DNA of 64,000 bases from contig CACYPU010000003.1 in the NCBI GenBank assembly GCA_902776365.1, forward strand, positions 124,001 through 188,000, given 5' to 3'. Both the position numbers and the translations under genes were made by a program. The notes below the pieces were generated by a model. It ran no database searches, had not been told where the DNA came from, and saw nothing but the letters and a program-made list of their open reading frames with translations. This document shows, in pieces, positions 5,121-47,287 of this stretch. The stretch is from an uncultured Bacteroidota bacterium. Lineage in GTDB: Bacteria; Bacteroidota; Bacteroidia; Bacteroidales; P3. Positions within the stretch are counted from its first letter, which is position 1, and each line of letters begins with the position of its first letter.

Positions 5121-5213
5121 CTGAACTAAGAACCAAAAACTAAGAAGGCTGGCGCGATTATCTTGATGCGCCAGCCTAATTCTTAGTTCTTAGCTCTTAC
5201 TTCTTAGTTCTCT
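5121..5213. repeat. Heptamer arms around a GC-rich palindromic core
   Basis: Direct CTAAGAA-type units at the left and inverted TTCTTAG units at the right flank the hairpin at 5147-5176. The whole spacer between the rhomboid gene and kdd is therefore a repeat-arm/core/repeat-arm palindrome. Confidence 0.8.
5147..5176. terminator. Bidirectional hairpin between converging genes
   Basis: GGCTGGCGC at 5147-5155 pairs with GCGCCAGCC at 5168-5176 around a 12-base loop. It sits between the converging rhomboid and kdd genes and probably ends both transcripts, although no long T run follows. The core GGCTGGCGCG is shared with the repeat element in pheT. Confidence 0.65.
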
Positions 5214-9213: not shown

Positions 9214-9256
9214 TAAATTCTTAATTTTTAATTCTTAACTCTTAACTCCTAATTCT
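9214..9256. repeat. Heptamer array TTCTTAA/TTTTTAA type
   Basis: About six 7-base units (TTCTTAA, TTTTTAA, TTCTTAA, CTCTTAA, CTCCTAA) fill the gap before the permease gene and run over the tsaB stop codon. Confidence 0.8.
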
Positions 9257-9968
9257 CACGGAGTCCGTGGACAACACTTTTCTTGGCTACAAAGTCTTTG
9301 AGGTAGAAGGGTTCGAAGTAGGCCACATCCTCTGTCTTGCCATCGCGGAGACGGGATTCCGCCAGTTCCAGCATCCCATCAGCCGACAGACGGAAGCCAT
9401 TGTCATAGCGGGCGTTGTGGTGTGTGCCAAGCAACTCTTTTGTCTTCTCGGCGCCGTCGCCGATGAACATCACTTCTCCACTATCCAGCCACTCGTCGAA
9501 GCATCCCGCCTCGATAACATCGGCTGATGTGTCGCGGAGTATTTCCATTTCACCTTTCACCTTTAACCTTTCACCTTTCACCATCATCGTGTAGCATTCC
9601 ATGCGGCGGGCGTCGATCATGGGGCACACAAGACCGTGGTAGTCGGGGTGCTGACGGTAGTAGAGGGCGGCCATGGAGAGCAGCGTGGGCACGGAGAGCA
9701 GCGGGATGCCGAGGGCGTAGCAGAAACCCTTGGCGGTGCTGACGCCGATGCGGAGGCCAGTGTAGCTGCCAGGACCGGCGGAGACGCAGACGGCATTGAG
9801 GTCGCGGGGCGTCAGGTGGCTCTCTTTCAGCACCTCGTCGATGAACACCGAGAGGCTGGTGGAGTGGGCATTGGGAGTGTCGCTCTCGCGGCGCGCGAGC
9901 ACTTTACCGTCGGCGGCCAGCACCACGGAGCATATCTGTGTGGCAGTTTCTATCAGCAGTATATTCAT
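9249..9968 (-). CDS. tsaB: tRNA threonylcarbamoyladenosine biosynthesis protein TsaB
   Basis: A 239-residue TsaB, the non-catalytic partner of TsaD in making the t6A base next to the anticodon of ANN-decoding tRNAs. It starts MNILLIETATQICSVVL, the ASKHA fold start, and has the signature VSAGPGSYTGLRIG near residue 64. Near residues 128-141 an extra stretch, VKGERLKVKGEMEIL, is encoded by five 7-base units (9549-9583) and interrupts the conserved DARRMECYTMM-to-DTSADV region without breaking the frame. Its start overlaps the end of the LolA-like gene by four bases, suggesting co-transcription. Confidence 0.93.
   Translation of the reverse strand: MNILLIETATQICSVVLAADGKVLARRESDTPNAHSTSLSVFIDEVLKESHLTPRDLNAVCVSAGPGSYTGLRIGVSTAKGFCYALGIPLLSVPTLLSMAALYYRQHPDYHGLVCPMIDARRMECYTMMVKGERLKVKGEMEILRDTSADVIEAGCFDEWLDSGEVMFIGDGAEKTKELLGTHHNARYDNGFRLSADGMLELAESRLRDGKTEDVAYFEPFYLKDFVAKKSVVHGLREN
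9549..9583. repeat. Five heptamers (TTCACCT) translated within tsaB
   Basis: TTCACCT twice, TTAACCT, TTCACCT and TTCACCA. Read on the coding strand it is the AGGTGAA unit also seen in the LolA-like and DUF5683 genes, here in a different frame, giving Lys-Gly-Glu triplets. Confidence 0.9.
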
Positions 9969-13447: not shown

Positions 13448-14710
13448 TTATTCTATTTCTAAAAGAAGACCCTTGAGGTATTCGCCTTCCGGGTGATGGA
13501 TGGAGACGGGATGGTCCATGGCGTGAGGGAGCTGACGGACGATGCGGACACGACGGTGGGCGTTCATGGCGGCGGTGAAGACCATGGTCTGGAAATCCTC
13601 TTTGCTGACGGCCTGGCTACAGGAGAAGGTCATCAGGAAGCCTCCGGCGGGCAGCGCCTCCATAGCACGCTGGTTGATGGCGCGGTAGCCTTTAAGGCCT
13701 TGCTGGAGCGAGCGGTGATTCTTGGCGAAGGCGGGAGGGTCGAGGATAATGAAGGTGAAAGGAGTGGGTAGTGTGGAGTGGGTAGTGGGTAGCATTTGTC
13801 CTCGTGTGCTATCCACTACACACTGTCCACTACCCACTAAATACTTTAACACATCGGCGACGGTGCCCTGGTGGGGGGCGTCGGGGCCGAAGTTCATCTC
13901 CACATTGCGGTTGCAGAGGTCGATGGCTTTCTTGGAGATATCCACAGTCTCCACATACTCGGCACCGCCACGGAGGGCGGCGAGGGAGAATCCGCCAGTG
14001 TAGCCGAAGCAGTTGAGGAGGCGGTGGCCACGGGCGAGGTCCTGCACCAGCTTGCGGTTTTCGCGCTGGTCGACAAAGAAACCTGTCTTCTGCCCTTCGA
14101 AGAAGTTGATGAGCAGACGGTTGCCGTGCTCTGTGATTTCCCACTCTTGAGGTTCTATACCCCACAAATAGCCGTCATTGCCGCCACCGGGCACAGTGGA
14201 AGAGCTCTTGTCGAAGATGGACTGGAGGCCGTAGGGTTTCAGTTCCTCCTTCAGTATTTTCACAAGCATGGGAAATAACTTGTGCATGCCCACGGAGTGC
14301 GCCTGAAGGACGAGGACTCCGTTGTACCAGTCGGCGACGAGGCCAGGGAGGTAGTCGCCCTCGGCATGGACCATCCGGAAGACGTTTGTAGGTGAAAGGT
14401 GAGAGGTGAGAAGTGAAAGGTTATTAAAAAAGCCGAGGTTTGCACGGTAAGCAATGGCGGAGCGGAGGCGCTGGCGGAAGAAATCTTCGTCAATCTGCGG
14501 AGTGTCGAAAGAAAGCACTTTGCAGATGATGCTCTCGTTCTGATAGTGTCCCGTGGCGAGCCACTGGCCGTGGGCGTCGACGACATTGACGAGGTCGCCC
14601 TCCTGCGGTTCGCCGTCGATACGTTTTACGGCACCCGAGAATATCCACGGGTGACGGCGGAGGATGGCCTTCTCCTTGCCTGGGGCTATGATGAGCTTGG
14701 GGCGGTTCAT
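13448..14710 (-). CDS. rlmI: Class I SAM-dependent rRNA methyltransferase (RlmI-like)
   Basis: An RlmI-type 23S rRNA m5C methyltransferase. The N-terminal PUA domain starts MNRPKLIIAPGKEKAILRRH, then WIFSGAVKRIDGEP. The Rossmann core has FVDQRENR, LLNCFGYTGGFSLAAL and the catalytic LDPPAFAK and SCSQAV motifs. I place the start at 14710, because the open frame upstream to 14869 reads as Arg-rich antisense of rpe. The ATG overlaps the rpe stop by four bases. Two repeat insertions are translated: heptamers at 14390-14422 (residues about 97-107) and a 77-bp palindrome at 13763-13839 (about 291-316), just before LDPPAFAK. Neither disrupts a catalytic motif. Confidence 0.88.
   Translation of the reverse strand: MNRPKLIIAPGKEKAILRRHPWIFSGAVKRIDGEPQEGDLVNVVDAHGQWLATGHYQNESIICKVLSFDTPQIDEDFFRQRLRSAIAYRANLGFFNNLSLLTSHLSPTNVFRMVHAEGDYLPGLVADWYNGVLVLQAHSVGMHKLFPMLVKILKEELKPYGLQSIFDKSSSTVPGGGNDGYLWGIEPQEWEITEHGNRLLINFFEGQKTGFFVDQRENRKLVQDLARGHRLLNCFGYTGGFSLAALRGGAEYVETVDISKKAIDLCNRNVEMNFGPDAPHQGTVADVLKYLVGSGQCVVDSTRGQMLPTTHSTLPTPFTFIILDPPAFAKNHRSLQQGLKGYRAINQRAMEALPAGGFLMTFSCSQAVSKEDFQTMVFTAAMNAHRRVRIVRQLPHAMDHPVSIHHPEGEYLKGLLLEIE
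13763..13839. repeat. 77-bp palindromic element, copy 1, inside the methyltransferase gene
   Basis: Eleven exact 7-base steps: four AGTGGGT-type units, core AGCATTT-GTCCTCG-TGTGCTA, then four TCCACTA/CACACTG/CCCACTA units. The translated peptide on the minus strand includes CVVDSTRGQMLPTT. Copies 2, 3 and 4 are at 20174, 30298 and 46269. Confidence 0.93.
14390..14422. repeat. Heptamer array AGGTGAA/AGGTGAG translated in the methyltransferase
   Basis: Four units plus part of a fifth encode NLSLLTSHLSP on the minus strand. The sequence falls between the linker helix and the conserved NVFRMVHAEGD, where family members normally have a short loop. Confidence 0.88.
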
Positions 14711-19654: not shown

Positions 19655-20449
19655 TTAACTGTCCAGGTATTCCACCTTGGTAAGGAATAGGCCGCAGGCC
19701 GGCATGCTCACGCCGGCGGCGCAGCGGTCTTTCTTCTCGATAATCTCGCGGAGGCCTTCGATGCTGAGCTTGCCACGTCCCACGTCGAGCAGCGTGCCGG
19801 TGACGCTCCGCACCATATTTCTAAGGAAGCGGTTGCTCCTTATCGTAAAAATCCACTCCTCCCCCACCTCGTCCCAATGAGCCTCGCTGAGATGGCAAAT
19901 ATTCGTCTTCACCTGCGTGTGAAGCTTAGCAAAGGAGGTGAAGTCGTCGTACTCCATCAGCACCCGTGCGGCCTCGTTCATCTTGTCAATGTCGGGCTTG
20001 AAATAAATGCGGCAGTACTGTCCCTGGCGGAACGGCAGCCGTCGGTCGCTCACATGGTATTGGTAGGTCCTCGCCGTAGCGTCAAACCGCGCATGGGCGT
20101 TGTCCGCCACCGGGAAGATGTCGAAGATGGCGATATCGGGCGGTAGGAAGGAGTTGAGCTTGAAAACGATATTAGTGGGTAGTGGATAGCGGGTAGTGGG
20201 TAGTATTTGTTCCCGTGTGCTATCCACCACCCACTCCCCACTATCCACCTTAAGGTCAAAATGAGCGTAGAAGTCGCTCGCATGCACCCCCGTGTCCGTC
20301 CGGCCGCAGCCCACCACGGCAACCTTCTGCCGCAGCAGCGTGCTCAACGCCTCCTCGAGGGTCTGCTGCACCGTGGGCAACCCCGGCTGCGTCTGCCAGC
20401 CGCAATAGTTCGCCCCGTTATACGCCAGATGTATAAAATATCGTCCCAT
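19655..20449 (-). CDS. truA: tRNA pseudouridine(38-40) synthase
   Basis: TruA isomerises uridines 38-40 in the tRNA anticodon stem-loop. The catalytic aspartate is Asp52 in CGRTDTGVHAS. HARFDATARTYQYHV and FLRNMVRSVTGTLLDVG are conserved. I start at 20449 (MGRYFIHLAYNGANYCGWQ), because the five upstream in-frame residues come from a heptamer array. Residues about 67-92, between AHFDL and FKLNSFLPPDI, are an extra segment encoded by the 77-bp palindromic element (20174-20250). In other TruA proteins this position is a short surface loop, so the enzyme may tolerate it. Confidence 0.94.
   Translation of the reverse strand: MGRYFIHLAYNGANYCGWQTQPGLPTVQQTLEEALSTLLRQKVAVVGCGRTDTGVHASDFYAHFDLKVDSGEWVVDSTREQILPTTRYPLPTNIVFKLNSFLPPDIAIFDIFPVADNAHARFDATARTYQYHVSDRRLPFRQGQYCRIYFKPDIDKMNEAARVLMEYDDFTSFAKLHTQVKTNICHLSEAHWDEVGEEWIFTIRSNRFLRNMVRSVTGTLLDVGRGKLSIEGLREIIEKKDRCAAGVSMPACGLFLTKVEYLDS
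20174..20250. repeat. 77-bp palindromic element, copy 2, inside truA
   Basis: Eleven 7-base steps: AGTGGGT, AGTGGAT, AGCGGGT, AGTGGGT, core AGTATTT-GTTCCCG-TGTGCTA, then TCCACCA, CCCACTC, CCCACTA, TCCACCT. The minus-strand translation contains WVVDSTREQILPTT, nearly the same peptide as in copies 1 and 3. Confidence 0.94.
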
Positions 20450-20455
20450 TTCAAC

Positions 20456-20490
20456 GTTAACCATTAACCCTTAACCGTTAATCATTACCC
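20456..20490. repeat. Heptamer array GTTAACC/ATTAACC between truA and the next gene
   Basis: Five units, GTTAACC, ATTAACC, CTTAACC, GTTAATC, ATTACCC. The stop codon of the 20478 gene lies inside it, and an upstream in-frame Met for truA is created by it. Confidence 0.87.
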
Positions 20491-21833: not shown

Positions 21834-21901
21834 TACTTTAACACCCAGGCATTCGCCCACCTGAGGACTTTTTGATACCCTAAATAGGTAAAACGCCCTC
21901 T

Positions 21902-21981
21902 GTTTAACCATTGTTTTACCATTGTTTTACCATTGTTTTACCATTTAAATGAAAGAACAATGAAAGAACAATGAAAGAACA
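21902..21981. repeat. 11-base direct repeats TTGTTTTACCA and ATGAAAGAACA
   Basis: TTGTTTTACCA occurs three times in tandem (21911-21943), preceded by a variant, and ATGAAAGAACA three times (21949-21981). They fill the gap between the AT-rich gene pair and the pheT terminator. Confidence 0.88.
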
Positions 21982-24607: not shown

Positions 24608-26302
24608 TTATTTAATTTTTGCCCAACTATCTTTTAATGTGCAGGTGCGGTTGAAGACCAGGTGCTCGGGAGTCGAGTCGCGGTCGGTGCAGAAATAGCC
24701 CATGCGCTCGAACTGGTAACGGGCGATGCCATCTTTCCACTTTCCACTTTCCACTTTCCACTCTCCAAGCGCAGGCTCACACTTGGCGGTGACCACACGC
24801 AGGCTGTTGGGGTTGAGGTTCTCGAGGAAGGTGTGGCCTTCTTCGACATCGTCGGGAGCCTCGACGGCAAACAACCTATCAAACAAGCGCACCTCGGCGT
24901 CGATGGCGTGCTGCGCACTGACCCAGTGGATGGTGCCCTTCACCTTGCGGCCGTCGGGGGCGTCGCCGCCGCGCGTGGCGGGGTCGTAGGTGCAGTGGAT
25001 GCAGGTGATGTTGCCCTCGGCATCCTTCTCGACGCTCTGCGCCGTGACGAAGTAGGCATAGCGCAGACGCACCTCCTGGCCGATGGCCATGCGGAAGTAT
25101 TTCTTGGGGGCCACCTCCATGAAGTCCTCGCGCTCGATCCAGAGCTCGCGACCGAAGGGCACCTGTCGGGTGCCGTCGGCCTCGCACTCGGGGTTGTTCA
25201 CGGCCGTCAGCATCTCAGTCTGTCCCTCGGGGTAGTTGTCGATAACCACCTTCACGGGGTCAAGGACAGCCATGCGGCGCTGGGCCACTTTGTTGAGGTG
25301 CTCGCGCAGCGAGAACTCCAGCAGGCTGTAGTCGATGATGTTGTCACGCTTGGCCACGCCGATGCGCTCGCAGAAGGCCTTGATGCTCTCGGGCGTGTAG
25401 CCGCGACGGCGGAAGCCGCAGATGGTCGGCATGCGGGGGTCGTCCCAGCCGCTGACGTAGTTCTCCTTGACCAGCTGCAGCAACTTGCGCTTGCTCATCA
25501 CCGTGTAGTTGATGTTCAGGCGGGCGAACTCGTACTGATGGCTCGGCCAGATGCCCAGCTGCTCGATGAACCAGTCGTAGAGCGGACGGTGGATATCGAA
25601 CTCCAGCGTGCAGATACTGTGGGTGATATGCTCGATGCTGTCGCTCTGTCCGTGGGCATAGTCGTACATCGGGTAGATGCACCATTTGTCGCCCGTGCGG
25701 TGGTGGTGGGCATGGAGGATGCGGTACATGATGGGGTCGCGGAACATCATGTTGGGGTGTGCCATATCGATCTTGGCGCGCAGCACCTTGCTGCCGTCGG
25801 GGAACTCGCCGGCGCGCATGCGGCGGAAGAGGTCGAGGTTCTCCTCGACGCTGCGGTCGCGGTAGGGGCTGTTCTTGCCCGGTGTGGTAACAGTACCGCG
25901 GCCCTCGCGGATCTCGTCGAGGGTCTGGTCGTCGACATATGCCAGTCCTTTCTGAATCAGAAGCTCGGCCCACTCGTAGAGCTGCTCGAAATAGTCGGAG
26001 GCATAGTGCTTCTCGGCCCAGTCGAAGCCCAGCCAGTGGATGTCTTCCTGGATGGAGTCTACATACTCTGTGTCTTCCTTCACGGGGTTGGTGTCGTCGA
26101 AACGCAGGTTGGTCTTGCCGCCGTACTTCTTTGCCAGTCCGAAATTAATGCAGATCGACTTGGCATGGCCGATGTGCAGGTAGCCGTTGGGTTCCGGCGG
26201 AAAACGGGTCTGGATAGCGGTGTAGGTGCCGTCCTTCAGTCCCTGTTCAATTATCTCTTCAAGAAAATTCAGTTGCCTCTCGGCAGCATTGGTCTCTTCC
26301 AT
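24608..26302 (-). CDS. glnS: Glutaminyl-tRNA synthetase
   Basis: A 564-residue class I synthetase that charges tRNA-Gln. [21 protein letters not shown] carries the HIGH signature near residue 40 and VMSKRKLL the KMSKS equivalent. The GlnRS/GluRS active-site parts (RFDDTNP and [18 protein letters not shown]) and the two C-terminal beta-barrels for anticodon recognition are present. Near residues 511-523, [14 protein letters not shown] is encoded by five heptamers (24734-24768) inserted before the conserved [10 protein letters not shown] strand. The presence of GlnRS means that the amidotransferase route is not needed for Gln-tRNA. It ends three bases before pheT starts. Confidence 0.96.
24734..24768. 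repeat. Five heptamers (TTTCCAC) translated within glnS
   Basis: TTTCCAC four times then TCTCCAA. On the minus strand they read GTGGAAA units, giving Trp-Lys-Val-Glu-Ser-Gly-Lys. They sit in the last beta-barrel domain of GlnRS. Confidence 0.92.
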
Positions 26303-28117: not shown

Positions 28118-29392
28118 TTAAACCTTAAGTTTCATGATCTGTTCTCTGAAGAAATCGCCGCGAACCTCGAAGTTCTTGAAAGCGTCGTAGCTAGCTGCCG
28201 CCGGCGACAGCAGCACCACCCCACCCTCCGGCGTGTGCTCGGCGCACCAAGGAACAATCTTGGTGTAATCGTCCTCTTCGAGGAATTGAGAATTGAGAAT
28301 TGAGAATTGAGAATGTATGCGGCGACCCGCCTGTCCGACGAAGACAAGGTTCGATATCGGGTTCTCTTTGAGGAAGTCGACCAGCGGCGTATAGTCGATG
28401 CCACGGTCGAAGCCACCAAGGATCAGCGTATCCACCCTACCCAGTGCCTTCACGGCGGCGATAGCGGCGGCAGGAATGGTCGAAATGCTGTCGTCATACC
28501 ATGTGATGCCTGCCACTTCTCCCACCTTCTCCATCCTATGCCGCAACCCTTGGAACGAACCAAGAAGTAAGCGGTAAGAACTAAGAGAATCAGCCGGCAA
28601 TCCATTCTTAGTTCTTAGTTCTTCCTTCATAGTTCTCACCACACGGCAGGCCACCAAAGCGTTGCTCCTGTTGTGCTCGCCCTCCAACGGGCAGGCGGCG
28701 AGCAGACTCTTCTCCTCTTCGGTGATATCATTTAAGGAATACGGATGTAGCACGCCGGGCATGGCTTGCGACCTGACAAGTTCGTCAAGTTCTGTTGCAT
28801 CGCTACACCAGAAGAAATGGTCGCCCTCACGCTGTTTCAACCCTATCTGCATCTTCGCCATCTTGTAGCCCATATAGTTCTCGTAATGGTCGAGGTGTTC
28901 CTGGAAGAGGTTGAGCAGAACTGCGATATGAGGCCCGCGATGGATGTTCTCCAGCTGGTGACAGCTCAACTCCGCTACCACCACGCTTCCTTCCTTCAGC
29001 TCGTCGAGGATATCGAACAGCGGGATACCGATATTGCCTGCCAATATACTACTTGGGAGCAAGTGATGTATCAGCGAGGCCGTGGTACTCTTGCCCTTGG
29101 TGCCAGTCACACCGATGGTCGTATCGCCATATACTTGTAAGAAGATATCCGTCAGCGATGAGCACTCCACGCCACCCATGACCCTCATCGGCACACCGGG
29201 ACTTTTGATTATCAGGTCGTAGCCTTTGGCAGCTTCGGCGGCAATTTGCTCGTTACCGTCAGCAATAACATACTCGGCCTCGGGCACCAGCCGCTGTATC
29301 AGCCGTTCGGCACTCTTGCCCTCACGACCATAACCCGCAATCAAAATCCTGCGTCCCTCCAGCAGGGCTTTCAGTTGTTCTTCTCTGTACAT
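28118..29392 (-). CDS. murD: UDP-MurNAc-L-alanine:glutamate ligase (MurD/MurD2 type)
   Basis: A 424-residue Mur ligase. The N-terminal Rossmann part starts ILIAGYGREGKSAERLIQ, the ATP P-loop is GVTGTKGKSTTASL near residue 95, and the C-terminal domain has TWYDDSISTIPAAAIAA and LILGGFDRGIDY, all MurD-like. Because it is paired with a MurL-type epimerase, it may be the MurD2 form that adds L-glutamate. Two translated repeat regions are present: ILNSQFLEED (28283-28310) and a longer palindrome-like run (28563-28637, ELRTKNGLPADSLSSYR). It overlaps murL by 22 bases and is followed closely by the M20 gene. Confidence 0.88.
   Translation of the reverse strand: MYREEQLKALLEGRRILIAGYGREGKSAERLIQRLVPEAEYVIADGNEQIAAEAAKGYDLIIKSPGVPMRVMGGVECSSLTDIFLQVYGDTTIGVTGTKGKSTTASLIHHLLPSSILAGNIGIPLFDILDELKEGSVVVAELSCHQLENIHRGPHIAVLLNLFQEHLDHYENYMGYKMAKMQIGLKQREGDHFFWCSDATELDELVRSQAMPGVLHPYSLNDITEEEKSLLAACPLEGEHNRSNALVACRVVRTMKEELRTKNGLPADSLSSYRLLLGSFQGLRHRMEKVGEVAGITWYDDSISTIPAAAIAAVKALGRVDTLILGGFDRGIDYTPLVDFLKENPISNLVFVGQAGRRIHSQFSILNSQFLEEDDYTKIVPWCAEHTPEGGVVLLSPAAASYDAFKNFEVRGDFFREQIMKLKV
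28283..28310. repeat. Four heptamers (GAATTGA) translated within murD
   Basis: GAATTGA four times in tandem, encoding Gln-Phe-Ser-Ile-Leu-Asn-Ser-Gln on the minus strand, inside the C-terminal domain. Confidence 0.9.
28563..28637. repeat. Heptamer palindrome with GCCGGC core translated within murD
   Basis: AAGTAAG/GGTAAGA/ACTAAGA units, then a GCCGGC core, then inverted TTCTTAG units. Same arm type as the spacer at 5121-5213, here inside a gene and kept in frame. Confidence 0.82.
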
Positions 29393-30759
29393 GCTTCTTG
29401 CAGAATATTTCGTTCTTCCTCCGTGAGATTCCCCATGGGAGAAAGGGTCTTAAGGTCTTTTATGTCCTTACCGTCATCTTTTAAATCTCTTAGAAGCGCC
29501 GGACGTTCATCGGGATACCACCTCTTGAGTGTCATGCCCAGCGCCTGCCGCACCTCGTTCACCGTCCCTACACATTCGAAAGGCTTTGTCTCGGCTTCAC
29601 CTATCAACTGTCGGAACTCGTGCTCCAGCGTCATGTCGTCGAGCATCGCCTTGCCAAAAATCTGGTTCAGTCTCACGGGCTCTATGAAAGGCGACAGGAT
29701 GATATAGGCGAAGAGGCACTTGGCGCAGTGGCCACACCAGATGTCCTCCTTGCTGCCCACATTGCAGCTCCTGAACACATCGTGGTAGGCCGTGAAGCGA
29801 CTGAACAGCATGGCAATCTGCAACTCACTCAACGGCCGCAGGAAACTGAAGTAATTGAAGCCTGGGCAATAGCGACGGAAATCATCCTCGAATTCGAGGC
29901 TCTTGGAGTATTGGTGGTTGACAGTAGTGCCTATCACCGTGCTCTCGTTGGCCGAGTTCTCGTTGCTGAGGGCCACATTGGGCACTCCACTCAAAGTTGA
30001 CGCCAACCGTGTGTAGAACGCCAGCATCGCCGAGAAGGGCGTATGTCCGTTCAGGTAACGGTGAACGTTCGCTCCCGTTTGGTCGCATTCAGTTTCACCG
30101 TTCAGGTCCAGCAGCGTGGGGTCAATCTTGCGGCGAATCACCAGCACCTCCTCCATCGGGAATCCCGCAATACGGGCACATTCGATTGTGGCCCCGCGTG
30201 GATTCATAATCAGCGGCCGTATCTGCTTCCCTGCCCGACGCAACAGTTCCAACGTCACCACCGAGTCCTTTCCTCCTCCAATCGGCACCAGATATTGAGT
30301 GGGTAGTGGATAGTCGGTAGTGGGTAGCACATGGTCCCGTATGCTATCCACTACACACTCCCCACTACACACTTGCAGAAACGAGTCTTGCGTTTCTGCG
30401 ATGCCATTGGTATAGAAGAACTCACCGAGGCCGTTCCAGTAGAGCTTTTTCCAGAACGCCACCTGCCCGTCGTCGAGCGACCCACATTCCACCTTCACCG
30501 TCGGCGGACAAGCACATTTCCAGTAGCTTATCAGCTCTATCATGCCGATGTCGAACACCATACGGTCGATGTCCTCGGCATCCATATTGAGGAATGGACG
30601 CGCCTCGAAGAGCGCCTCGGGATGAAACACCACGTCACCCATTCTGCAGTCGAACCACACCTTCAGTCCCTTCTCCGTCACCTCGTGATGGTAAGCCTCA
30701 TATACAAACTCGGGATACCGCTCGCGCAGATCCCTGTACCTTTCGTTTCTGTCATTCAT
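29371..30759 (-). CDS. murL: MurL-type UDP-MurNAc-L-Ala-L-Glu epimerase
   Basis: A 462-residue protein from the ATG at 30759 (MNDRNERYRDLRERYPEF); the in-frame Met at 30804 gives a less plausible N-terminus. It has a PP-loop-like ATP motif, VPIGGGKDSVVTLELL, near residue 160, an ALSNENSANE segment and WCGHCAKCLFA. In Xanthomonas, MurL epimerises the L-Glu of UDP-MurNAc-L-Ala-L-Glu after MurD2 adds it. The placement next to a MurD gene fits that route. The third copy of the 77-bp element is translated at residues about 129-154, directly before the PP-loop. The stop overlaps murD by 22 bases. Confidence 0.78.
   Translation of the reverse strand: MNDRNERYRDLRERYPEFVYEAYHHEVTEKGLKVWFDCRMGDVVFHPEALFEARPFLNMDAEDIDRMVFDIGMIELISYWKCACPPTVKVECGSLDDGQVAFWKKLYWNGLGEFFYTNGIAETQDSFLQVCSGECVVDSIRDHVLPTTDYPLPTQYLVPIGGGKDSVVTLELLRRAGKQIRPLIMNPRGATIECARIAGFPMEEVLVIRRKIDPTLLDLNGETECDQTGANVHRYLNGHTPFSAMLAFYTRLASTLSGVPNVALSNENSANESTVIGTTVNHQYSKSLEFEDDFRRYCPGFNYFSFLRPLSELQIAMLFSRFTAYHDVFRSCNVGSKEDIWCGHCAKCLFAYIILSPFIEPVRLNQIFGKAMLDDMTLEHEFRQLIGEAETKPFECVGTVNEVRQALGMTLKRWYPDERPALLRDLKDDGKDIKDLKTLSPMGNLTEEERNILQEACTEKNN
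30298..30374. repeat. 77-bp palindromic element, copy 3, inside murL
   Basis: Eleven 7-base steps: AGTGGGT, AGTGGAT, AGTCGGT, AGTGGGT, core AGCACAT-GGTCCCG-TATGCTA, then TCCACTA, CACACTC, CCCACTA, CACACTT. Translated on the minus strand as CVVDSIRDHVLPTTDYPLPT. Confidence 0.94.
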
Positions 30760-30861
30760 AATACTCTTTATAACTCTTCTTTCAAAAAAATATTGTCCCC
30801 ACACAATAAAAAAACTCTCTCCTCGTTAAAACAGACAAAACAATTAAAACAATCATTCACA

Positions 30862-34469: not shown

Positions 34470-34497
34470 TTTCAATTTTCAATTTTCAATTTTCAAT
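34470..34497. repeat. Four TTTCAAT heptamers before the RND pump gene
   Basis: Four perfect units directly upstream of the RND start (34505). They occupy the place of the ribosome-binding region and could affect translation within the operon. Confidence 0.9.
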
Positions 34498-34504
34498 TTA
34501 GAAA

Positions 34505-38046: not shown

Positions 38047-38089
38047 TCCATCCCTGAACGGCTCATATGTTCGCTTGTTGTTTGGTATA

Positions 38090-38132
38090 TGTTCGGTATA
38101 TGTTCACTTTAAAAGCGAACATATACCGAACA
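38090..38132. repeat. Perfect 16-bp inverted repeat TGTTCGGTATATGTTC
   Basis: TGTTCGGTATATGTTC at 38090-38105 has a perfect inverse at 38117-38132. Upstream GTTTGGTATA is a further partial direct copy. It resembles the GTTCGGTATTTGTTC run at 6440-6455. Confidence 0.75.
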
Positions 38133-43984: not shown

Positions 43985-44581
43985 CTAGAAGTTCAGACTC
44001 ACTCCCACCGAGGGTTGGAAGCCCTGTGGGGAGGATAGGACCGTAGGGACGACAGCAAGGGAGATATCATCGTCGATGCGGAAGTCGTAGAGATGTCCGA
44101 AGACATAGGCGTCGATGAGGTTGAGTGCATAGATGCCGGCGGTGATAATCACCATGAGCTGGAAGTCACGGTCGTAGGAGTTGTAGAGGCTGTAGATGCT
44201 GGAGGTGGGATAGTTGGCGTAGTCGGCAAGGTTGGGGGTGCCGTTGTGGTTGACGCGGTAGAGATACTCATCCTTGAACTTCGCCATGCGAGTGTAGTTG
44301 TAGTGTATGGCATAACCCATGCCAGCGAAAGCACCGTAGATGACAGGGACCTTCCAAGCCTGACCGTTGTAGATCTGGCCGCCACCGGGGATGAGCGACA
44401 AGAGGAGAGCCTTGGAGGCCGAATGTTCTTCGGGGACCTTCAGATCGACGGGCTCGGCAGGAGGCTGGACTTCGACACGCTGGGCCTGTAAGGTGAAAGG
44501 TGAAAGGTGAAAGGTGAAAATTATGGCGCATAAAACTATACGCCATAACTTCCTGTGTCTTTCAAAAAATTCAATTTTCAA
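43985..44581 (-). CDS. DUF5683 family protein
   Basis: A 198-residue protein recognised as DUF5683 by the segment HSASKALLLSLIPGGGQIYNGQAWKVPVIYGAFAGMGY and the following Tyr-rich helix. Two or three hydrophobic segments follow. It lies between parB and the exbB group, an order common in Bacteroidota. Its signal peptide is unusual: FTFHLSPFTLQAQ in the hydrophobic core is encoded by four AGGTGAA heptamers (44491-44518), the same as in the LolA-like protein. The N-terminal codons also contain a TTATGGCG/CGCCATAA inverted repeat. Confidence 0.85.
   Translation of the reverse strand: MKIEFFERHRKLWRIVLCAIIFTFHLSPFTLQAQRVEVQPPAEPVDLKVPEEHSASKALLLSLIPGGGQIYNGQAWKVPVIYGAFAGMGYAIHYNYTRMAKFKDEYLYRVNHNGTPNLADYANYPTSSIYSLYNSYDRDFQLMVIITAGIYALNLIDAYVFGHLYDFRIDDDISLAVVPTVLSSPQGFQPSVGVSLNF
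44491..44518. repeat. Four AGGTGAA heptamers coding a signal-peptide core
   Basis: Identical array to 10561-10588, read in the same frame, giving FTFHLSPFT in the DUF5683 protein. Confidence 0.92.
44521..44548. other. Inverted repeat TTATGGCG/CGCCATAA
   Basis: An 8-bp perfect inverse pair with a 12-base centre, inside the N-terminal coding part of the DUF5683 gene, between the two heptamer arrays that flank it (44491 and 44569). Confidence 0.6.
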
Positions 44582-45478: not shown

Positions 45479-46255
45479 TTATTTTTTATTTTTTTTGTTT
45501 CTCTCCAGAATCTCCTGCGCCAGGTTGAGGTAGTTGACAGCCCCCGTGGAGGCGGCGTCGTGCATGATGATACTCTTGCCGTAGGAAGGAGCTTCTGCCA
45601 ACTTGGTGTTGCGGTAGATGAGGGTGTTGAACACCATCTTGCCGAAGTGACCACGGACATCCTCGACGACCTGACGGGCCAGACGCAGCCGATGGTCGTA
45701 CATGGTGATGAGCAGGCCCTCAATAGCGAGCTTGGGATTGAGGCGCGTCTGCACGATGCGCACAGTGTTCAGCAACTTGCCAAGACCCTCAAGGGCGAAG
45801 TATTCGCTCTGGATGGGGATAATCACCGAGTCGGAAGCCGTGAGGGCATTGATGGTGATGAGGCCCAGGGAGGGTGAGCAGTCGATGATAATGTAGTCGT
45901 AGTTGTCCTTGACGGGCTCGAGGGCACGAGAGAGAAACTGCTCGCGGCCTTTCTCGTTGATGAGCTCCACCTCAGCACCGACAAGGTCAATGCGCGTAGG
46001 CAGGAGGTCGAGGTTGGGGGTATCTGTCTCGATGATGACCTCGGAGGCCTGGGCCTGATCGAGGATACAGTCGTAGACGCTCTTCTCCAACTCGTCGGGG
46101 TTGAATCCGAGGCCTGAAGTGGCGTTGGCCTGGGGGTCGCAGTCGACCAGCAGCACCCGCTTTTCGAGCACCGCCAGCGAGGCGCTGAGGTTCACCGCCG
46201 TGGTGGTCTTCCCCACCCCGCCCTTCTGGTTGGCTATGGAAATAATCTTGGCCAT
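45479..46255 (-). CDS. parA: ParA/Soj chromosome-partitioning ATPase
   Basis: A 258-residue Walker-type ATPase. The deviant P-loop IISIANQKGGVGKTTTAVNLSASLA is at the start and the Walker B-like LLVDCDPQANATSGLG near residue 35, with later IDCSPSLGLITINALTASD. It works with ParB in origin segregation. It lies downstream of the 77-bp element and the DUF3276 gene on the minus strand. Confidence 0.96.
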   Translation of the reverse strand: MAKIISIANQKGGVGKTTTAVNLSASLAVLEKRVLLVDCDPQANATSGLGFNPDELEKSVYDCILDQAQASEVIIETDTPNLDLLPTRIDLVGAEVELINEKGREQFLSRALEPVKDNYDYIIIDCSPSLGLITINALTASDSVIIPIQSEYFALEGLGKLLNTVRIVQTRLNPKLAIEGLLITMYDHRLRLARQVVEDVRGHFGKMVFNTLIYRNTKLAEAPSYGKSIIMHDAASTGAVNYLNLAQEILERNKKNKK

Positions 46256-46268
46256 TGTTTTTTTATTT

Positions 46269-46345
46269 AGTGGGTAGTGAATAGTGGGTAGTAGGTAGCT
46301 ATTGGTCCTGTATGCTACACACTATCCACTACACACTATCAACTT
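46269..46345. repeat. 77-bp palindromic element, copy 4, between parA and DUF3276 genes
   Basis: Eleven 7-base steps: AGTGGGT, AGTGAAT, AGTGGGT, AGTAGGT, core AGCTATT-GGTCCTG-TATGCTA, then CACACTA, TCCACTA, CACACTA, TCAACTT. This intergenic copy shows that the element can exist outside genes. Confidence 0.93.
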
Positions 46346-46347
46346 TT

Positions 46348-46692
46348 TTAAAACTTAAAGTCTATCTCTTCCAGTTTGCTGTCGACGTTGTCGCCGTGCC
46401 AGTTGTCCTCGACGACAACGGGAGGAGGCACGATGCCGGTCTCAATGAATTTGAAGGCATTGTCGAGACCCTGACGGAATTTATCGAAATCCTCTTTGTA
46501 GAGGAACATCTTGTTTTTTTCGAAATAGACCTCGCCGGTATTGTTATCAAACAGCTTGCGGCTCTCAGTGATGGTAATAAACTTGTCACCTCCACGGGTT
46601 TCTTTCACATCGAAGAAATATCTGCGTTTGCCAGCAGGGATGGCCTGGCTGTAGAGTTCTTCTTTTCTTTGCTCTTTGTTGTCCATACTCAT
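46348..46692 (-). CDS. DUF3276 family PUR nucleic-acid-binding protein
   Basis: A 114-residue protein of the bacterial PUR-alpha-like family (DUF3276), which binds single-stranded nucleic acid. GKRRYFFDVKETRGGDKFITITESRK and DFDKFRQGLDNAFKFIE are characteristic. The family is widespread in Bacteroidota and also in Borrelia (BpuR). The start may be Met1 (46692) or Met3. The C-terminus, EEIDFKF, lies just before copy 4 of the 77-bp element. Confidence 0.88.
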   Translation of the reverse strand: MSMDNKEQRKEELYSQAIPAGKRRYFFDVKETRGGDKFITITESRKLFDNNTGEVYFEKNKMFLYKEDFDKFRQGLDNAFKFIETGIVPPPVVVEDNWHGDNVDSKLEEIDFKF

Positions 46693-46999: not shown

Positions 47000-47050
47000 C
47001 AAAGTGTAAAAGAGACCCTAAAAAGGCTTAAGTTCTTTGACATGAATTGT

Positions 47051-47179
47051 TTGTCATGGTTGCCCACCCCTGAGGAGGGCACCAAGAGGGAATCGCGTGA
47101 AAATCGCGAGCTGTCGCGCAACTGTGAACCTCCGCCGACATCTGTCACATTGGGGAAAGCCAGACACCTGCCATGACAA
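47051..47179 (+). promoter_or_regulatory. Cobalamin (B12) riboswitch
   Basis: The closing stem is TTGTCATGG (47051-47059) with CCATGACAA (47171-47179). Inside are the conserved GGGAATCGCGTGAAAATC and CTGTCGCGCAACTGT core and a B12-box-like GCCAGACACCTGCC near the 3' end. A downstream hairpin-forming stretch (TTTCGCG with CGCGCGAAA, about 47196-47245) may be the expression platform. It sits 109 bases before the nrdD start. Confidence 0.88.
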
Positions 47180-47287
47180 CCACGATACATGCCGCTTTCG
47201 CGTCAAAAGCCGGCCGTGACCACAATAACTGTCGGCCTCGCGCGAAACATATTATATATAAGAAGCAAAAAAAAGACCTATACAACA

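Follow-up and report, generated by a model that had tools for sequence, protein, structure and literature searches.

Rickettsia palindromic elements (RPEs) are dispersed palindromic repeats of several families that are translated in frame in unrelated conserved genes; lengths of 105-146 bp or of about 150 bp are stated for them, and in-frame fusions are described for further small repeats too, according to the accessible parts of two reports (PMC10969869, PMC2229807). The accessible part of the second report also describes Correia/NEMIS elements in 107-bp and 155-bp forms, with a genic form carrying open frames and an intergenic form carrying stops (PMC2229807). REPs, as far as the available text of the reports goes, lie mainly outside genes and are linked to RAYT genes (PMC3733652, PMC3116915), and REPs inside genes have been reported as well (PMC3733652). 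Among heptamer repeats, the GGGAATC heptamers of Xanthomonas have a mode of four units, with 70 and 75 convergent cases in two genomes and 89-93% of them intergenic, by the accessible portion of that study (PMC4692102). The TAACTGA direct repeats of Beggiatoaceae, Cyanobacteria and some Bacteroidetes comprise few units and are mostly intergenic, with one indirect versus 169 direct sets in the main genome, and G. forsetii, A. sublithincola and E. anophelis have other heptamer repeats beside TAACTGA in their intergenic regions, in the sections of that paper that were available (PMC4679880); heptameric repeats are also mentioned for cyanobacteria in partly accessible literature. Palindromes that are translated have a precedent in Rickettsia, and inverted arrays of four heptamers have one in Xanthomonas, where they are mostly intergenic; for the combination of the two no record was found, and a search of the open-access literature returned no report of translated heptamer palindromes in Bacteroidales.

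The window analysed here, a stretch of 64,000 nucleotides from a genome with a 2.23-Mb assembly (G000), carries four copies of a palindrome:

13763..13839, core orientation plus: copy 1, 77-bp palindrome, open on the minus strand in the frame of the RlmI-like methyltransferase gene 13448-14710
20174..20250, core orientation plus: copy 2, 77 bp, in frame on the minus strand in truA 19655-20464
30298..30374, core orientation plus: copy 3, 77 bp, in frame on the minus strand in the murL-like gene 29371-30804
46269..46345, core orientation plus: copy 4, 77 bp, intergenic, with no open frame

In each copy, a core of 21 bases is flanked by four heptamers of AGTGGGT type on one side and by four inverted heptamers on the other, and the computed RNA hairpins range from -34.8 to -50.7 kcal/mol. 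The three genic copies are all open on the minus strand in an identical phase of the element, and copies 1-3 encode the in-frame peptides VGSGQCVVDSTRGQMLPTTHSTLPT, VDSGEWVVDSTREQILPTTRYPLPT and VCSGECVVDSIRDHVLPTTDYPLPT, respectively; copy 4 is flanked by the DUF3276 gene (46348-46692, minus strand) and a ParA-like AAA_31 gene (45479-46255, minus strand). A preliminary description had claimed the positions and the build of the four copies, one orientation and frame for those in the RlmI-like, truA and murL-like genes, and a location of the fourth between parA and DUF3276; the positions and build were found as described, the translations agreed with the second claim and the domain scans with the third. 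When copy 1 was used as the query against its own genome, copies 2-4 were matched with E values of 2.7e-17, 1.7e-16 and 1.6e-10, core included. Because the core is common to all four copies and to copies from other genomes, the likeness goes beyond a simple repeat, and a chance or simple-repeat resemblance was ruled out. An Rfam scan of the window found no family at the copies; its sole match at the gathering score was a cobalamin riboswitch at 47040-47189 (RF00174, 71.4 bits).

Like RPEs, the palindrome is dispersed over unrelated conserved genes and stays open in their frame, with the same frame used by 53 of the 54 genic copies, and the resemblance proposed in the preliminary description stands in this respect. 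Unlike RPEs, by the descriptions accessible in part, it is 77 bp made of 7-bp steps, has mixed arms and occupies sites also used by other heptamer families. With the Xanthomonas GGGAATC and Nostoc GGGGA(C/T)T repeats, as covered by the available portions of the sources, it shares a 7-bp unit, about four units and convergent inverted pairs, but it is mostly genic and in frame, with many heptamer types and a conserved core, whereas one heptamer type was studied there. The earlier remark that a heptamer-built palindrome is unfamiliar needs narrowing, since inverted four-heptamer arrays have a precedent in Xanthomonas in the accessible part of that study (PMC4692102). The TAACTGA repeats, again going by the sections available, are similar in being heptamer direct repeats of few units.

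Searches of the own genome and its relatives revealed a dispersed family in this genome and genus. Copy 1 gave at least 87 matches in the own genome, with both strands and half arms counted and 40 of 64 first-look candidates scored. Complete or almost complete copies, 67 altogether, were read in ten genomes that all belong to a single rumen genus of the Bacteroidales (22 each in G000 and G012, nine in G019, four each in G023 and G002, two in G062, and one each in G004, G008, G009 and G022), a set that holds the copies with at least 54 of the 77 positions and more than 40 bits among the fetched loci and is not all copies. Genus-wide, a consensus-like copy matched 19 of 59 genomes at E 0.001, some by half arms alone, with both strands listed and a part of the candidates scored (15 of 66 for G000). 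None of 16 genomes from other families matched the element. Across the order, five of 295 genomes matched among the best three candidates per genome, namely the own genome and four of other families (L348-L350, G300), and these four carried an AGTGGGT array of ~30 bp alone, with no inverted arm; a palindrome in G153 or G263 may have been missed because at most three candidates were scored (the best three of 13 and of 24, respectively). Zero matches in viral contigs (one exact degenerate pattern) and in phages and plasmids (blastn, copy 1) ruled out phage or plasmid carriage. The named relatives reached via TruA were mostly rumen and gut Bacteroidales MAGs, including 'bacterium P3', and an assembly artefact is unlikely because the TruA copies occur in MAGs from different projects (L105, L108).

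Five of the 17 genic copies in G000 matched a copy at the same gene position elsewhere, and six when the RlmI copy common to G062 is included; part of the family is thus old, because these six share their site with a copy of another species, and a single event may lie behind copy 2 and its counterpart in G012. The earlier proposal of an active or recently active element found no support as to present activity, 6/17 sites being shared across species. A single clade origin was not supported, as the RlmI tree showed the family clustered (six label changes versus 9.4 in shuffles, 6/500 as low) yet not one clade; this tree comprised 27 of 30 loci with a usable protein, had an unsettled bootstrap, was built with no deliberate removal of the insert columns and labelled one-match genomes as lacking the element.

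The hosts of 23 of the 54 genic copies were scanned and 21 gave a family match (MurL's below cut-off). In G000, a Pfam or NCBIfam match was obtained for 15 of 17 hosts and none for L021 and L022; the matched hosts are MurL-like (below cut-off), TruA, RlmI-like, NTP transferase (ManC-type), PIF1/HRDC helicase, APH/RapZ, GH20-type, NUDIX, amidohydrolase, glycosyltransferase 4, MraW/RsmH, peptidase M28, FAD-dependent, PolyA_pol/HD (CCA-adding-type) and FGAR-AT (PurL-type) proteins, of which the names ManC-type, PurL-type and CCA-adding-type were read from domains. All six hosts scanned from other genomes were matched (Ham1, radical SAM, amidohydrolase, NRDD, AAA/ChlI protein and WG repeats). The RlmI-like host matched Pfam PUA_3/Methyltrans_SAM, with the RlmI-like NCBIfam models below cut-off, the TruA host matched TIGR00071 above cut-off, and for the MurL-like host no Pfam family was matched and the top NCBIfam model stayed below its cut-off. 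The TruA insert lies in the linker equivalent to E. coli TruA residues 69-79, between aligned blocks (query residues 71 and 102). At the M28 peptidase (L005:1014-2006), a heptamer-like stretch appears to encode part of an N-terminal signal-like region (FNFQFSIFNS).

Copies were called genic when they lay in an open frame of at least 150 residues with at least nine residues before and at least 20 after the copy, and 54 of the 67 were so classed; orientation and frame were identical in 53 of these, L270 being the lone genic copy that uses another frame. A single frame among the six was open in 43/54 genic copies, and one or two more were open in 11/54. Twelve of the 13 non-genic copies, judged from a listing of nearby open frames, had no open frame at all, and the thirteenth, L255, lies inside a 178-residue frame and is probably genic; because the call was made by open frame, a gene broken by a copy would count as non-genic. 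Of 43 ungapped genic copies, 42 had C or G, and L270 alone did not, as the base before the AG that opens the third heptamer of the sense arm; in all 12 closed copies this base was T on the sense strand, giving TAG. Usually one frame of six is open because this heptamer junction reads GAG or CAG and not TAG, and the uniform frame needs no targeting because the other frames are mostly closed. Unlike the Correia/NEMIS forms, as described in the accessible part of the report, the genic and non-genic forms here are about the same size and are told apart by a single heptamer junction. This junction pattern is what would be predicted if stops were selected against in translated DNA, and the sequences strongly support a filtering of copies by frame. 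Such filtering would imply translation of the insert, since RNA-level removal or ribosome bypass would not need a host frame free of TAG. Eleven palindromes of other heptamer families were picked by eye from TruA, RlmI and MurL, and all 11 were open in the host frame; further frames were open in six of them (L202 and L203 in RlmI; L076, L079, L082 and L085 in MurL), so stops do not fix the frame in those six.

Alignment of the host genes to their orthologues indicated that many relatives lack the element and have a short native loop where G000 carries it; the TruA orthologues L107 and L113, for example, are without the insert. In the ManC-type gene, nine of 13 readable relatives were empty with a short native loop (G019 was unreadable), and the gene with the element was 75 bases longer than the shortest empty site. 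The net gain relative to relatives was a multiple of three, and native residues were lost or changed at the site. The insertion was thus not a simple addition of 77-78 bases to a native loop, and its junctions are blurred because the relatives are other species. Extra target bases had been proposed to restore the frame; the flanks gave no support for this, and no duplication of 3 bp or more exceeded chance, as flank matches of 3 bp were found in 3/63 copies versus 2.2 expected, with the element ends uncertain by a few bases, and matches of 1 bp (25 versus 18.5) and 2 bp (12 versus 6.6) stayed within the shuffle maxima of 28 and 14.

This lack of a target duplication of 3 bp or more would also suit a REPIN-like element, in which the arms are REP-like units and the inverted doublet is mobile through a RAYT (Y1_Tnp). 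REP/REPIN systems and the present family are alike in having singlets and inverted doublets, and both inverted doublets and single arms were found here; furthermore, GTAG, which is a REP tag according to the available part of PMC3733652, recurs in AGTGGGT-type repeats, and some element-rich genomes hold Y1_Tnp (three in G012 and four in G062). However, element matches and Y1_Tnp numbered 19 and 0 in G019 (81% complete), 21 and 1 in G023, at least 24 and one weak in G000, and 0 and 7 in G001. Y1_Tnp counts therefore do not track element counts over the same 59 genomes, whose assemblies are incomplete, and a RAYT mobiliser was rejected as far as Y1_Tnp, the one domain tested, represents it. Together with the genic position of most copies (54/67, unlike REPs) and the other heptamer families that lack GTAG, this makes a REPIN-like origin quite improbable.

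Besides the four copies, the window holds further heptamer arrays and palindromes, including the following:

5123..5211, no strand assigned: palindrome with TTCTTAG-type arms, between open reading frames
9548..9582, minus strand: one-armed TTTCACC array in a TsaD-domain gene (9249-9968)
14390..14421, minus strand: one-armed AGGTGAA array, second site of the RlmI-like gene; G052, G072 and G062 have 9-10 native bp there
24733..24767, minus strand: one-armed CTTTCCA array in a class I (E/Q) tRNA synthetase gene (24608-26302)
28283..28314, minus strand: one-armed GAATTGA array in a Mur-ligase-domain gene (28118-29392); GGTGAAA in G062, GTGGAAA in G052
28562..28636, minus strand: palindrome with TTCTTAG arms (by eye) in the same Mur-ligase-domain gene (28118-29392); GTGGAAA in G072, AGTGGAT in G052
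34470..34499, no strand assigned: one-armed 30-bp TTTCAAT array lying between open reading frames
44490..44519, no strand assigned: one-armed 30-bp AAGGTGA array within the DUF5683 gene 43985-44581

By a strict array test, which leaves aside the arms of the four 77-bp copies and concerns one-armed arrays, 18 period-7 arrays (2.81 per 10 kb) were counted in the window versus none in ten order-2 Markov shuffles, and the perfect period-7 runs were 28-32 bp long. Genus DNA syntenic to the window (272.7 kb) held 74 period-7 arrays and 80 named MAG loci around TruA (650.6 kb) held 103, whereas the next commonest period had 3 arrays in the window, 10 in the syntenic DNA and 29 at the TruA loci. One such array was found in contig starts from 15 other families (176.6 kb). 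Five other genus loci (L311-L315, 73.8 kb) had no period-7 array and six arrays of 11-bp units; arrays of 11-bp units were also seen in the window, at 21901-21945, 21948-21981 and 38079-38105. Neighbouring arrays formed 82 inverted pairs, a count inflated because loci were partly fetched for the palindrome, along with 13 direct and 12 other pairs, and the purine-rich arm came first in 80 of the 82; 40 pairs were scored as other families, of which about six read as AGTGGGT, leaving ~34. In the tally of heptamer classes 171 of 176 arrays stand, the other five being masked N runs.

The excess of period 7 both inside and outside genes, and the conservation of sites though the heptamers differ, could arise from purely local heptamer expansion, i.e. 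slippage microsatellites at permissive sites with palindromes made by local template switching. Supportively, when all pairs were compared, 39 of the 40 heptamer classes (the N class left out) resembled each other slightly more than letter-shuffled classes did (0/500), although this did not hold for nearest neighbours (82/500). Local expansion is nevertheless unlikely, as the same asymmetric core and heptamers recur across unrelated genes and genomes and 80 of 82 inverted pairs start with the purine-rich arm.

The sites themselves are reused by different heptamer families. The palindrome shared by G000 and G062 at the RlmI site has as its counterparts an AGTGTTT palindrome in G002 and TGATTGT arrays in G052, G072, G015 and G019, and the MurL site holds AGTGGGT, GGAAAGT, GAGGAAT, AGAGTGG or GTTGAAA versions depending on the species. 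At the ManC-type site, GTTGATA heptamers form a palindrome in G062, in-frame arrays of ~10-bp units (GAGTGAAAGG) occur in G052 and G002 (L332, L336), and G015 has a longer loop with no clear array. Heptamer arrays filled 25 of 56 orthologous gaps versus 24 of 733 at random control sites, with several gaps scored 'none' showing arrays by eye; by gap length, the fractions at sites and controls were 0/9 versus 0/18 (20-50 bp), 12/31 versus 2/561 (50-80 bp) and 13/16 versus 22/154 (80-300 bp). Seventeen array sites of the window entered this comparison and 16 were comparable, with up to six relatives each, and the 25 filled gaps comprised 16 of a different and nine of the same heptamer family after the gap at 20174 in G012 was regraded as same family. 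Chimeric arms were also found, as in MurL of G009 (L078/L039), where the left arm is GTGGAAA and the right ACCCACT, and in L289. The preliminary interpretation was right about an RPE-like dispersed element in frame in unrelated genes, but it missed the larger population of arrays and palindromes, the site reuse and the mixed arms.

At RsmH, where G000 has a palindrome, an array-derived or array-like peptide (V-E-S-G-E-W and variants) occurred at the same codon in ten of 14 relatives, by our own reading and weakly in three (G062, G022, G041), and 4/14 had none. One codon register was kept across different heptamers in seven genomes at RsmH and in nine at MurL, which may partly mean that a single old insert was inherited vertically and then altered by point changes. 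Retention of V-E-S-G-E-W in G023 despite partly eroded heptamers (14/26 period-7 matches, versus 17-23 in others) is what a functional peptide kept by protein-level selection would show; yet the same loop has no insert or an unrelated peptide in many relatives and near-identical peptides occur in unrelated enzymes, and we consider such a function very improbable.

Equally far from our expectation, if not slightly farther, is a selected nucleic-acid signal, an mRNA hairpin or G-quadruplex to which the peptide would be incidental. The computed hairpins are strong, and (TAGTGGG)4 fits the G-quadruplex motif, as has been proposed for the Xanthomonas GGGAATC repeats in the accessible part of PMC4692102; against this, the A/T-rich heptamer families lack a G-quadruplex motif and the copies have no Rfam match. 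Covariation or compensatory changes between the arms were not detected, as 1166 of 1462 cells paired in 43 copies versus 1190 +/- 6 with right arms shuffled. With fewer pairs within copies than between shuffled arms, compensatory pairing as in an RNA structural element found no support in this set.

Collectively, the explanation that we favour, with somewhat better than even confidence, is a genus-level family of short, non-autonomous, dispersed and translated palindromes whose arms are exchangeable heptamer arrays. Each palindrome is made of two convergent four-unit heptamer arrays around a core of ~21 bases. Palindromes would have come to rest in loops of conserved proteins that tolerate them and be translated there, genic copies surviving by GAG or CAG at the one junction and TAG copies being found only outside long frames. 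The arms belong to a genome-wide population of one-armed arrays, different heptamer families reuse the same sites, in some cases with the codon register unchanged, and certain elements are chimeras of two families. We infer that the palindromes spread by copying into sites that already hold arrays, through arm-to-arm conversion or template switching, and by fresh insertion into variable loops. Dispersal is supported by the recurrence of copies, and exchange from array to array is plausible but unproven; landing sites and arm exchange are suggested by the site reuse, shared register and chimeric arms, and movement itself is inferred because there is no identified mobilising enzyme and no insertion seen between near-identical strains.

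A more tentative possibility, which we hold to be doubtful but worth stating, is that the arrays are heptamer cassettes in fixed landing sites (protein loops or intergenic), one family overwriting another in register and arm by arm. Were this true, the sets of peptide insertions in core enzymes would be rewritten as lineages diverge, and this clade's currently successful cassette, a two-armed one, would be the 77-bp palindrome.

The favoured family of dispersed translated palindromes would widen the range of translated palindromes, for which Rickettsia is the best-known source, to a lineage of the rumen and gut in which a one-base difference separates genic from intergenic copies. It would link two puzzles, the commonness of bacterial heptamer repeats and the addition of peptides to conserved enzymes by selfish DNA, and the natural orthologue pairs with and without the insert are open to direct test.

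Palindromes that are not built of heptamers were observed at the same loops in other species (L120:4001-4762, L088, L200), with peptides such as LTPDPSPCGEG in TruA and PLPSPLKRGAGGE in MurL. Because they occupy the same loops elsewhere, the hot spots accept several palindrome classes. The cores of the L186, L202, L203, L076, L079 and L085 palindromes have a common GCGTCAGCC-like stretch or its complement, and some AATTGAA-type palindrome cores have TGCCGCAC in common.
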